A stretch of 64,000 nt of DNA from NCBI GenBank assembly GCA_024643325.1, contig JAHEND010000003.1, positions 186,001-250,000 on the forward strand. Direction: 5' to 3'. This DNA is from Sediminicola sp. (lineage in GTDB: Bacteria > Bacteroidota > Bacteroidia > Flavobacteriales > Flavobacteriaceae). Below the pieces are notes generated by a model that saw nothing but the letters and a program-made list of their open reading frames with translations, was not told where the DNA came from and ran no database searches. Position numbers and translations under genes: made by a program. Positions 29,320-32,822 of this stretch are shown here, piece after piece; the first letter of the stretch is position 1, and each line of letters opens with the position of its first letter.

Positions 29320-31636
29320 CTTTTCATATTCTTTTCCAAGACACATTTGTCTCACGGTTTTCTTGTTTTTAGGAATTGCAAAAGGGTATGCCCAAGGTGC
29401 TAAAAATATGAAAACAGAGGTTTTTGAGCATATAAAATTACCTGCTCAGGAACAAGAACTTAAAGTTGGCTTGGTATTAAGCGGAGGCGGTGCGAAGGGA
29501 TTGGCTCACATTGGAGCACTTAAAGTAATCGAGGACTCTGGGGTTAAAATAGATTATATTGCAGGAACAAGTATGGGCGCTATTGTAGGGGCTTTATATG
29601 CCTCAGGGTATAGGGCAAATGAGCTAGATTCTATATTTAGACAAATAAATTTTAACAGTCTTATTCAAGATGATTTTTCAAGGTCAAGTAAGACTTTTTA
29701 TGAAAAAGAGGACGCAGAACGCTATGCAATAAGCCTACCATTTGATGGGTATAAAATTTCTTTTCCTCAGGCTATTTCTGGTGGCCAAAAGGTATACAAC
29801 GAATTAGTCTCACTGTTGTATCATGTAAAAGACGTACGAGATTTTAACCAATTGCCCATACCTTTTTTTTGTATGGCAACAGATATAGAAAATGGCACCG
29901 CTATTCGTTTAGACAATGGGTATCTTCCAGAGGCTATCATGGCTTCTGGAACCTTTCCTTCTCTTTTTGAACCCATGGAATTGGACGGAAAACTTCTTAT
30001 AGACGGGGGAGTTTTAAATAATTACCCTATAGCTGAGCTAAAGTCCTTAGGGGCAAATTTTATTGTAGGTGTAGACGTTCAACACGACCTTTCCAGTAGA
30101 GCATCACTGGGCTCAGCAACGGATATTTTGTTGCAAATCAACAATTTTAGGACGGCAGATGCAATGAAAAGCAAGTCCAATGACACCGATATTTACATTA
30201 GGCCAAACATGGCACCCTACTCTGTAATAGATTTCGATAGGGGTGTAGAAATTGTTGCCGAAGGTGCCCGTGCCGCTTTTTTAAAAGAAAAAGCACTGAT
30301 TGAATTATCTAAAAAGCAATTGAAAAGGAAGCTTAAGGATCAAACACCTTTATGGAACACTTACAGAAAAGACACCCTAAATATTACCTATATAGAGGTG
30401 AATGGTATGGTGAATTATTCAGATGATTATGTTAAAGGGAAGCTCCGATTTAAAGAGGGTGATCAGATTAAATTTGAAGATTTAAAGCGAGGGATAAATA
30501 ATTTAGCAGCTACAAATAATTTTAATACCATTCGGTATAAGTTAATTGAAAAGACTACCGGACTGGGTCTAATTTTAAACTTGAAAGAAAGTGACAACAA
30601 GACTAATATTAGGTTTGGGGCCCATTATGACAAGTTGTATAAAAGTGCTGCTTTGGTAAACATCACCCAAAAGAATTTTTTGAGAAAAGACGACGTACTT
30701 TCCTTGGATTTCATTTTTGGAGACTATCTAAGGTATCAGATAGATTATTATGTGGATAAAGGGTTTAATTGGAGTTTTGGACTGAGAAGTAAGTTAAACG
30801 ACTTTAATTTTGACATACCCTATAAGGTACTTGAAAAAAATTTCAGGCTGCCAGATGACCCTAATTTAAATACGGTGAATATGGACTTTACAGATTTCAC
30901 CAATCAATTCTATCTTCAAACGGTGTATAAGAATGCATTCTCTATTTCACTTGGCCTAGAGCATAAATGGATTAAGTACAGTAGCGACACCTTTTTACAA
31001 GAAAGCACCCAGACAAATAACAGTTCGGTACTCACTTTAGAAAAAAGTCACTATGCCAGTGTTTATGGACAATTAAGGTTCGACACTTTAGATGATTTTT
31101 TCTTTCCTTCAAAAGGATTTTATTTAGAGACAGATTTTCACACCTACTTTTTGTCTAGTGACTTTAATGGAACGTTTAATCCATTTTCAATTTTTAGATC
31201 AAAGGCAATAGCCGCTCTAAATTTTACTAAAAACTGGTCATTTGTTTTGGCTCCTGAGGTGGGAATTAAGTCCGGAAGTTCAGGTACTAAATCCTTGGAT
31301 TTTGCCCTTGGCGGGTTGGGTGCACCCCAAATCAATAATTTCATTCCTTTTTTAGGCTATGATTTTATAGCTATTCCGGGAGATAGTTTTTTAAAGATGA
31401 AGGCTACATTAGATTTTGAAATAACACCTAAAAATCATTTTATTGTAGCAGCAAATATTGCTAAAGTGACGGATGACATTTTAAGGCCTGGTTCTTTTAA
31501 AAGAGCCCCTTCGTATTTTGGATATGGCTTGGGCTATGGATTTGAGTCAATTATAGGCCCAATGCAAATGATGTATACTAAATCTCCATTAAACGGGAAT
31601 GGGAGTGTGTTCTTTTCCCTAGGTTTTCCTTTTTAA
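29303..31636 (+). CDS. Patatin phospholipase fused to an outer-membrane barrel
   Basis: This 777-residue protein has an N-terminal signal (ending near GYAQ, residue 31) and a patatin domain with the oxyanion GGGAKG (61-66), nucleophile Ser90 in GTSMG and Asp234 in DGG. A POTRA-like segment (about 360-430) follows, then a C-terminal beta-barrel ending in GFPF. This is the layout of PlpD-type (type Vd) autotransporters, here placed in the outer membrane with a lipase domain on one face. Substrates are probably phospholipids, by analogy. ATG 29303 is chosen for the signal. It overlaps uvrC by 17 bp. Confidence 0.9.
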   Translation: MNISINFSYSFPRHICLTVFLFLGIAKGYAQGAKNMKTEVFEHIKLPAQEQELKVGLVLSGGGAKGLAHIGALKVIEDSGVKIDYIAGTSMGAIVGALYASGYRANELDSIFRQINFNSLIQDDFSRSSKTFYEKEDAERYAISLPFDGYKISFPQAISGGQKVYNELVSLLYHVKDVRDFNQLPIPFFCMATDIENGTAIRLDNGYLPEAIMASGTFPSLFEPMELDGKLLIDGGVLNNYPIAELKSLGANFIVGVDVQHDLSSRASLGSATDILLQINNFRTADAMKSKSNDTDIYIRPNMAPYSVIDFDRGVEIVAEGARAAFLKEKALIELSKKQLKRKLKDQTPLWNTYRKDTLNITYIEVNGMVNYSDDYVKGKLRFKEGDQIKFEDLKRGINNLAATNNFNTIRYKLIEKTTGLGLILNLKESDNKTNIRFGAHYDKLYKSAALVNITQKNFLRKDDVLSLDFIFGDYLRYQIDYYVDKGFNWSFGLRSKLNDFNFDIPYKVLEKNFRLPDDPNLNTVNMDFTDFTNQFYLQTVYKNAFSISLGLEHKWIKYSSDTFLQESTQTNNSSVLTLEKSHYASVYGQLRFDTLDDFFFPSKGFYLETDFHTYFLSSDFNGTFNPFSIFRSKAIAALNFTKNWSFVLAPEVGIKSGSSGTKSLDFALGGLGAPQINNFIPFLGYDFIAIPGDSFLKMKATLDFEITPKNHFIVAANIAKVTDDILRPGSFKRAPSYFGYGLGYGFESIIGPMQMMYTKSPLNGNGSVFFSLGFPF

Positions 31637-31763
31637 CTCTCTTAAATACAGATATTTCCTATTATTTAAGTAGCATTAAACAGTAATTATTCTTAAAGAA
31701 TTACTAAAAAATGTTCAGAATAGATAAATTACTGTTAAGACCTTAGTTAAAGTGAACTAAAAA

Positions 31764-31794
31764 CTTGTGTTAGCGCATGAATATATTACCTTTG
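31764..31794 (+). promoter_or_regulatory. Near-consensus Bacteroidota promoter for the small RNA
   Basis: CTTG (31764-31767) and TACCTTTG (31787-31794) are separated by 19 bp, the consensus distance for the main sigma factor of Bacteroidota. The start would fall near 31800. Confidence 0.65.
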
Positions 31795-31799
31795 TATTA

Positions 31800-31905
31800 T
31801 AAAGGGGTGGTTCCCTTTAGAACTTTAAGTATTGGTTTTTCATCATTTAAAGTTTGGTTGGTTATTTAAGAAAAGCCCAGTTGTAAAACTGGGCTTTTTT
31901 TTGTT
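31800..31905 (+). ncRNA. Candidate structured small RNA, about 105 nt
   Basis: The likely transcript folds into three hairpins. The first (31800-31819) pairs TAAAGGGG with TCCCTTTA around a TGGT loop. The second (31820-31855) has an 8-bp core AACTTTAA/TTAAAGTT, extendable by wobble pairs, with a loop of about 14 bases. The third (31871-31898) is a perfect 12-bp terminator stem followed by T-residues. It has its own promoter and no ATG followed by a real frame. It could be a trans-acting RNA or, less likely because of the terminator, a leader of the DUF3108 gene. I cannot match it to a named family by eye. Confidence 0.6.
31871..31903 (+). terminator. Terminator of the small-RNA candidate
   Basis: A perfect 12-bp stem AAAAGCCCAGTT/AACTGGGCTTTT (31871-31882 with 31887-31898) with loop GTAA is followed by further T residues. 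Confidence 0.92.
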
Positions 31906-32039
31906 TAAATGTGGAAAAAGCGATTAAAAATCTCAGTATATTACCCCATAGATCTATTTAAAAAATAAAATATGGTTAAATATCTGTGAAGGAGAATTTA
32001 AAGCCATTCCTTTTTTCTATTTTTACCTTAAATCTAGTT

Positions 32040-32822
32040 ATGAAAAAAATCCTTCTTTTTTGTCTCGTTTTGGGTTTTTGTGGAAACCTTATGGCTCAAG
32101 ACTCTTCTGTAGCGTTTAAAGACGGAGAATGGTTAAAGTTTAGACTTCATTATGGATTTTTGAATGCTAGTTATGCGACCTTGCATTTAACCAAAGCATC
32201 TTTAAATAATAAACCATTATTTCACGTGGTAGCCAAAGGAAAAACGACCGGGTGGGCCAGTATCTTTTTTAAGGTAGACGACACCTATGAAAGTTTTTTC
32301 ACCCCAAAAAGAAATGAGCCAATTAAGTTTATCAGGAAAGTTAGAGAGGGCGGTACAACCATGCATTTGGAAGTAGATTTTGATCATGAAAACAATAAGG
32401 CTTATATGCAAGACCTTAAAAATGGCAAAGATTTTGAATTTAACACCCAAAAAGGGATACAAGATATTATTTCTGCTTTCTATTTTTTGCGAAACGAAAT
32501 TAATCCGGTCACATTAAATGTAGGAGATTTTACGGTCATTAGTATGTTGTATGACGACGACGGTGTTTTCCCTTTTAAACTGGAATATTTAGGAACAGAA
32601 GCGCTAAAAACAAAATTCGGAACAGTATCTTGCCTAAAGTTTAGGCCTTATGTACAATCCGGCAGGGTCTTTAAAGCCCAAGAGAGTATTAGCCTTTGGA
32701 TTTCAAATGATTTGAATAAAATTCCTGTAAGGATAGAAGCAGATTTAGCTGTGGGCTCTATCAAAGCAGATCTAGAGGCTTATAATGGCTTAAAAAACCA
32801 ATTTAAAATAAGAATGGACTAG
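32040..32822 (+). CDS. DUF3108 exported protein
   Basis: This 260-residue protein has a clear signal peptide (MKKILLFCLVLGFCGNLMAQ). The mature part is strand-rich, with FKDGEWLKFRLHYGFLNASYATL and VISMLYDDDGVFPFKLEYLG, matching DUF3108, a periplasmic domain of unknown function related to the LolA/LolB-like fold. ATG 32040 is preferred to the upstream one at 31986. It is followed after 10 bp by the M23 peptidase, then pgi, and the three are probably co-transcribed. Its role is not known; an envelope role is inferred from export and context. Confidence 0.85.
   Translation: MKKILLFCLVLGFCGNLMAQDSSVAFKDGEWLKFRLHYGFLNASYATLHLTKASLNNKPLFHVVAKGKTTGWASIFFKVDDTYESFFTPKRNEPIKFIRKVREGGTTMHLEVDFDHENNKAYMQDLKNGKDFEFNTQKGIQDIISAFYFLRNEINPVTLNVGDFTVISMLYDDDGVFPFKLEYLGTEALKTKFGTVSCLKFRPYVQSGRVFKAQESISLWISNDLNKIPVRIEADLAVGSIKADLEAYNGLKNQFKIRMD

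Follow-up and report, generated by a model that had tools for sequence, protein, structure and literature searches.

A probable structured small RNA gene of the Flavobacteriaceae whose tail recurs before the terminators of RNAs with sigma-54-type promoters

The gap between a patatin/Omp85 gene and a DUF3108 gene in the window, by which we mean the whole 64,000-nt stretch of DNA analyzed here, very probably holds a real small RNA (sRNA) gene that occurs across the Flavobacteriaceae. The gene combines a flavobacterial promoter, a three-hairpin RNA fold supported by covariation, and an intrinsic terminator. Its tail, UUUGGUUGGUUA, recurs before the terminators of other RNAs, including sibling sRNAs with sigma-54-type promoters. 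The best explanation, which we consider moderately probable, is a family of sRNAs that act in trans on putative targets through a common seed and are tied to the sigma-54 envelope-stress regulon.

The gap extends from 31637 to 32039 (403 nt), from the end of the patatin/Omp85 gene at 31636 to the DUF3108 ATG at 32040. This length, claimed in a preliminary description of the DNA, is borne out by the open reading frame list and Pfam, and the upstream gene, there called an outer-membrane phospholipase, is patatin/Omp85 by Pfam. The promoter proposed at that stage (CTTG, a 19-nt spacer and TACCTTTG) can be read directly in the sequence, the three hairpins that were claimed are present in the fold of 31800-31902, and the perfect 12-bp terminator indeed pairs AAAAGCCCAGTT with AACTGGGCTTTT around a GTAA loop. 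The features of the locus are listed in Table 1. The sRNA promoter was absent from the output of a simple sigma-70 scan, presumably because the scan seeks an E. coli-type consensus, and the terminator at 31868-31901 was absent from that of a simple terminator scan, presumably because the stem runs into the U-run and leaves too few T in the tail. The window as a whole (1-64000), which comes from a genome of 1.96 Mb (G000), contains no tRNA and no Rfam family at gathering score.

Table 1. Features of the sRNA locus, in window coordinates
Feature	Position	Strand	Basis and remarks
GTTAA box	31734..31763	+	GTTAA 31734-31738, GTTAAAG 31746-31752, degenerate third copy 31754-31763; putative activator site
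Flavobacterial sigma-A promoter	31764..31794	+	Sequence; CTTG 31764-31767, 19-nt spacer, TACCTTTG 31787-31794
sRNA, ~103 nt	31800..31902	+	Start predicted (+/- 2 nt) from the -7 box, end predicted from the U-run
Hairpin 1, loop around GUGGU	31800..31819	+	Fold; double-sided changes in 7/7 modelled pairs
Hairpin 2, apical part UUGGUUUUUCAUC	31820..31855	+	Fold; conserved mainly as sequence
UUUGGUUGGUUA, unpaired except for its first three bases	31853..31864	+	Candidate seed or 3'-end module; little or no variation within class I
Intrinsic terminator hairpin	31868..31901	+	Sequence and fold; perfect 12-bp core 31871-31882/31887-31898
DUF3108 gene, downstream neighbor, outside the RNA	32040..32822	+	PF11306, E 1.2e-53 (scanned from GTG at 31986)

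The predicted RNA folds with an MFE of -39.6, against -19.0 +/- 3.0 for shuffled sequences (z -6.8; none of 200 shuffles was as low). The three-hairpin plan is found in the MFE structures of all seven homologs folded (z -3.6 to -6.0), with hairpin 2 looser in some. Covariation was assessed with an alignment (A6) of 73 homologs of this sRNA, designated class I, from 70 chosen loci. In this alignment, which was fitted to the model and hence leans towards the structure, 94.1% of pair cells can pair, compared with 80.0% after shuffling and 32-60% with slid structures, and double-sided changes occur in 22 of 26 pairs (13.0 when shuffled) and in 241 cells (52.0 when shuffled); covariation thus exceeds both controls. 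Hairpin 1 and the terminator have the strongest pair support, the latter with double-sided changes in 9/9 modelled pairs and 99.8% of cells paired, and RNAalifold alone predicts these two only. Hairpin 2, absent from the RNAalifold consensus, shows weaker covariation, with any double-sided change in 6/10 pairs and in few cells. The middle of the RNA is kept as sequence, UUUUCAU-AUUUAAAGUU-UUGGUUGGUUA, with conservation over about 29 nt in class I, and UGGU(U) is seen again in the hairpin-1 loop.

Upstream of the RNA, a GTTAA motif lies 40-45 nt before TAnnTTTG in all 146 distinct homologous promoters that could be scored, compared with 2/146 shuffled sequences; scoring required TAnnTTTG itself, and 47 of the 193 non-redundant loci could not be scored. 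A frequent form of the box is GTTAA-N7-GTTAAAGT-N2-GTTAAA. TAnnTTTG is the -7 consensus published for Flavobacterium psychrophilum, according to extracts of that study (PMC9723704). The -33 element of the preliminary description is not the conserved part, since a TTG at that spacing, 17-23 nt before TAnnTTTG, is present in only 54/146 homologous promoters; the description missed the GTTAA box. The pattern suggests that the class I promoter is an activator-dependent sigma-A promoter with a putative factor binding at the GTTAA box.

A blastn search of 99 relatives, including the window's own genome, gave matches at E <= 3.1e-10 in 17 other genomes. Compensatory changes and the divergence of the gap had been named beforehand as checks on the sRNA reading; the changes are found, and the matched part is 78-93% identical in the nine genomes of other genera. 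A covariance model built from 16 sequences (R1) matched 172 of 397 family genomes, representing 114 of 237 genera, at E <= 1e-3 and found no match in the other 225, although counts at this threshold mix classes because weak R1 matches are partly the class II sRNAs described below. At E <= 7e-11, our count for the same 397 genomes is 94 places in 90 genomes. In an order sample of 196 genomes, own-family members included, 20 matched R1 at 1e-4, and all 20 belong to the Flavobacteriaceae. The exact core pattern was found in at least 119 stretches of named genomes, with carriers including Maribacter, Zobellia, Arenibacter, Cellulophaga, Allomuricauda, Kordia, Galbibacter, Capnocytophaga, and Flavobacterium MAGs. 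At some loci, two to four sRNA copies stand in tandem (L322, L093, L327, L081, L082, L065). The reading of the gap as an sRNA gene, put forward in the preliminary description, thus gains support from homologs, fold and covariation; expression and function of the gene are predicted.

A second class of sRNAs (class II; alignment A5, model R2) has a GUGUGGUUAC hairpin, the UUUUUGGUUGGUUAGU core as in class I, and a terminator. A sigma-54 motif, typically TTGGCAC-N5-TTG, is found upstream of 45 of the 49 class II elements, which came from 40 loci (L346, L351, and L357 yielded none by the script pattern). By comparison, a strict version of the motif has a single occurrence in 128 kb of window strands, and 252 kb of strands from control loci contain it twice. 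Class II copies in tandem arrays mostly have a sigma-54 promoter each. R2 matched 164/397 family genomes at 1e-5, a count that takes in class I loci, including that of the window, and pair support for class II is weak on nine sequences. In extracts of the F. psychrophilum study, sigma-54 is described as driving protein quality control, envelope stress, gliding, and one putative regulatory RNA, Rfp36 (PMC9723704).

The complement of the tail, TAACCAACCAAA, was searched in 60 relatives, and the fetched sites were classified by script against a reversed-pattern control. After removal of duplicates and edge sites, the 110 script rows came down to 103 sites, of which four full-sRNA sites were set aside to leave 99; the 46 controls comprise one site from each of 26 family genomes and 20 more from six of those. 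Order-level loci were excluded, two among the targets (L358, L359) and four among the controls (L427-L430). The 99 sites are a subset: by our sum, the search gave 147 family sites and 86 with the reversed pattern, counting sites antisense to sRNAs. At 47/99 sites, compared with 3/46 controls (p 5e-7), the motif in sense orientation precedes a terminator, a proportion that may be high because sites were taken as one locus per genome where given and then from chosen genomes, excess-bearing ones first, and that includes some class II sRNAs. A terminator on the complement's own strand was found at 21/99 sites compared with 3/46 controls (p 0.03), and 34/99 sites lie inside long open reading frames compared with 40/46 controls.

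Among the 51 motif-plus-terminator elements (the 47 and the four set aside), 21 sit 0-19 nt past the stop codon of the upstream frame. Two exported-looking protein families have the module shortly past the stop codon and sigma-54 promoters (L517-L523, L527, L471, L417, L370, L458, L483), and one representative of each, scanned against Pfam, gave no match. A sigma-54 motif is upstream in 5/7 members of a lipoprotein-like family of ~310-320 amino acids and in 8/8 loci, one of them by eye, of a family of 371-458 amino acids, both module-carrying families having been grouped by eye from sequences without alignment. The motif also precedes the single gene for a 200-amino acid protein with the module (L395, 1/1), and it is absent from MscS-like channel genes with the module (0/3) and from the module-bearing genes at L470 and L360. 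The L470 gene encodes a small exported-looking protein that ends right at the module and has a sub-threshold DUF4890 match (27.0 vs 29.7 bits); it is reminiscent of Spy/CpxP. The 3'UTR of enterobacterial cpxP yields the sRNA CpxQ. With strict filters, neither R1 nor R2 has a match in two module-rich genomes, G020 and G023. The window's own genome has a second stand-alone element on the minus strand (L525; G000:C25 11188-11281, locus span G000:C25:9500-12932), with a TAATTTTG promoter, UUUGGUUGGUUA, and a terminator, and elements of this type are also present in G009 (L526) and, by site context, in G010 (L382).

According to the explanation we favor, sigma-A RNA polymerase, probably aided by an activator at the GTTAA box, would transcribe a stand-alone sRNA gene, and the RNA of about 103 nt would end at the intrinsic terminator. 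It would then pair in trans with mRNAs through UUUGGUUGGUUA, with the GUGGU loop and, in hairpin 2, the UUUUUCAU stretch as possible further contacts. The same tail would be common to class I, to the class II sigma-54 sRNAs, and to the 3'UTR ends of certain sigma-54-driven exported-protein genes, and these RNAs together would form the RNA arm of a sigma-54 envelope-stress and protein-quality regulon, a function that would carry over from F. psychrophilum (PMC9723704, seen in extracts). Several points count against this explanation: the class I promoter is of the sigma-A and not the sigma-54 type, 225 of the 397 family genomes lack an R1 match at 1e-3, the module-rich genomes G020 and G023 match neither model, some module-bearing genes lack the sigma-54 motif, pair support for class II is weak, and the pairing partners considered below are at best putative. 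We propose only tentatively that UUUGGUUGGUUA plus a terminator marks a family-wide set of RNAs sharing one seed, made up of class I, class II, and sRNAs released by cleavage of the 3'UTRs in sigma-54-driven mRNAs for exported proteins.

Candidate pairing partners were sought in several ways. General targeting of start codons, suggested when 10 of the first 40 sites lay just before an ATG, was lost against the reversed-pattern control, and the complement lies directly before a start codon at 14/99 sites compared with 4/46 controls, which is not significant (p = 0.43). In the window's own genome, a nagB-like gene with a glucosamine-6-phosphate deaminase domain has TAACCAACCAAA six bases before its ATG (L253, G000:C23:6421-6432), which would give 12 perfect pairs with the sRNA just before the AUG and make it a possible target. 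As a target of the family, nagB was rejected, as the site is present in only 4 of the 29 nagB upstream stretches listed, all four from genomes of the window's genus, and in at least two of these 29 (L289, L306) the stretch is coding sequence and not a true start. Pairing with the start of the adjacent DUF3108 gene was likewise set aside, no clear pairing being seen over 171 loci (duplex energy -15.8 vs -13.7 shuffled, mean rank 0.31), and these energies provide no evidence because the AUGAAA start that many of these genes have is lost on shuffling. Another idea is that the UUUUUCAU stretch of hairpin 2 could be antisense to AUGAAAAA starts.

The main rival to base pairing, possible though rather doubtful, is that UUUGGUUGGUUA beside the terminator is a protein-docking tail. 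It would serve an RNA-binding protein as its docking or stability site, or act as a signal for 3'-end processing or termination, and the RNA would work by binding or titrating that protein; alternatively, the site would only load a chaperone and the true seed would be elsewhere. Such a role would fit a module that precedes terminators in unrelated transcripts, a complement that is not significantly enriched at start codons, and the recurrence of UGGU(U) in the hairpin-1 loop. However, conservation in class I spans more of the RNA than a short protein site needs, and no protein of the RRM type, as in Bacteroides RbpB, was found in any of the 25 family genomes searched, the window's own included, compared with 4/15 other genomes, so that an RbpB-type partner is unlikely.

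A cis-acting role, in which the RNA is the leader or attenuator of DUF3108 and read-through of a conditional terminator feeds that gene, is improbable. It would account for DUF3108 following the RNA in the same orientation, at most 900 nt away, at 171 of the 193 non-redundant loci, with six of the remaining 22 having less than 360 nt of sequence downstream; the upstream gene varies among loci, being patatin, UvrC, or, in Flavobacterium, a gene that we named dioxygenase-like from its sequence. Yet in 147 of the 171 gaps a sigma-54-type promoter motif lies between the terminator and DUF3108 (shuffles would give 1.7), so that in most relatives the RNA does not serve as the leader of DUF3108. The tandem copies, the copies with no DUF3108 nearby, and the other promoters of the sibling sRNAs also argue against this role, and no alternative antiterminator was noticed. 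The rejection is less secure in the window's genus, where the sRNA-DUF3108 gap has no sigma-54 motif. In its place, the window's genus has TATTTTTACC at 32018-32027, 12 nt before the DUF3108 ATG; similar stretches were seen by eye before DUF3108 in many relatives and may be a second DUF3108 promoter element. Still less probable is that the conserved stretch acts as DNA, holding an enhancer for the DUF3108 sigma-54 promoter, which it immediately precedes in most genomes, given that conservation tracks an RNA structure whose pairs show compensatory changes, together with a sigma-A promoter that stays fixed, and that the motif is missing in the window's genus. A small-protein mRNA is highly implausible: two frames of 30 and 31 amino acids overlap the RNA, but the start codon of one is an ATG at 31777, ahead of the predicted RNA start, and that of the other is TTG, homologs have 1-2-nt gaps inside the RNA, and the pattern of change is RNA-like.

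Comparison with Rfam, including Flavo-1, had been suggested beforehand, and no family fits: there is no match at gathering score and nothing near it among the 49 matches at E <= 10, with BTnc231 (RF04180) at 28.6 bits against a gathering score of 80.4 and FopS (RF04319) at 22.2 against 56. Flavo-1 (RF01705, the accession being given in an extract of PMC9029176) is absent from the 49. A closer likeness is to Rfp18 of F. psychrophilum, described in extracts of PMC9723704 as an independent, structured sRNA widely conserved in the genus Flavobacterium. R1 at 1e-3 matched 97/121 genomes in the genus of G446 (Flavobacterium sp.) with 33.5-55 bits, and Rfp18, compared by description only, may represent class I in Flavobacterium; it differs in its pairing region, described there as a third stem-loop, and in a reported effect on two metalloprotease mRNAs. 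Rfp36, which a table of the same source lists as a putative regulatory RNA, has a sigma-54 (SM4) promoter, as class II does. The FopS/GibS sRNAs of Bacteroides are likewise multicopy Bacteroidota sRNAs with a common seed, but extracts of PMC11697453 place the seed of FopS in a single-stranded 5' stretch of an RNA with one terminator hairpin and name as its partner RbpB, an RRM protein, a type that was not found in the 25 family genomes. Apart from PMC9723704, no open-access paper among the matches listed describes this sRNA family in its title or the start of its abstract. GGUUGGUU was not found in the full text of the 15 best-ranked open-access Bacteroidetes papers, a ranking that favors papers with several of the search terms.

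In enterobacteria, MicA, RybB, and MicL of the sigma-E regulon, together with CpxQ, illustrate stress regulons with both stand-alone and 3'UTR-derived sRNAs. They are Hfq-dependent and differ from the RNAs described here in regulators and sequences, and the comparison is by analogy only.

To our knowledge, few sRNAs of the Flavobacteriaceae are understood, even though the family is abundant in the sea and in fresh water. Class I offers an RNA family that is defined and open to testing, together with its covariance model and a fixed promoter box as a putative activator site, and the recurring module ties sigma-54 transcripts concretely to a common RNA tail. Recurrence of the tail at the ends of sigma-54-driven RNAs suggests a shared regulatory network. 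If this is true, sigma-54 stress transcripts would double as a source of such regulators, and the regulon would have a built-in post-transcriptional arm that operates without an RbpB-type RRM protein.
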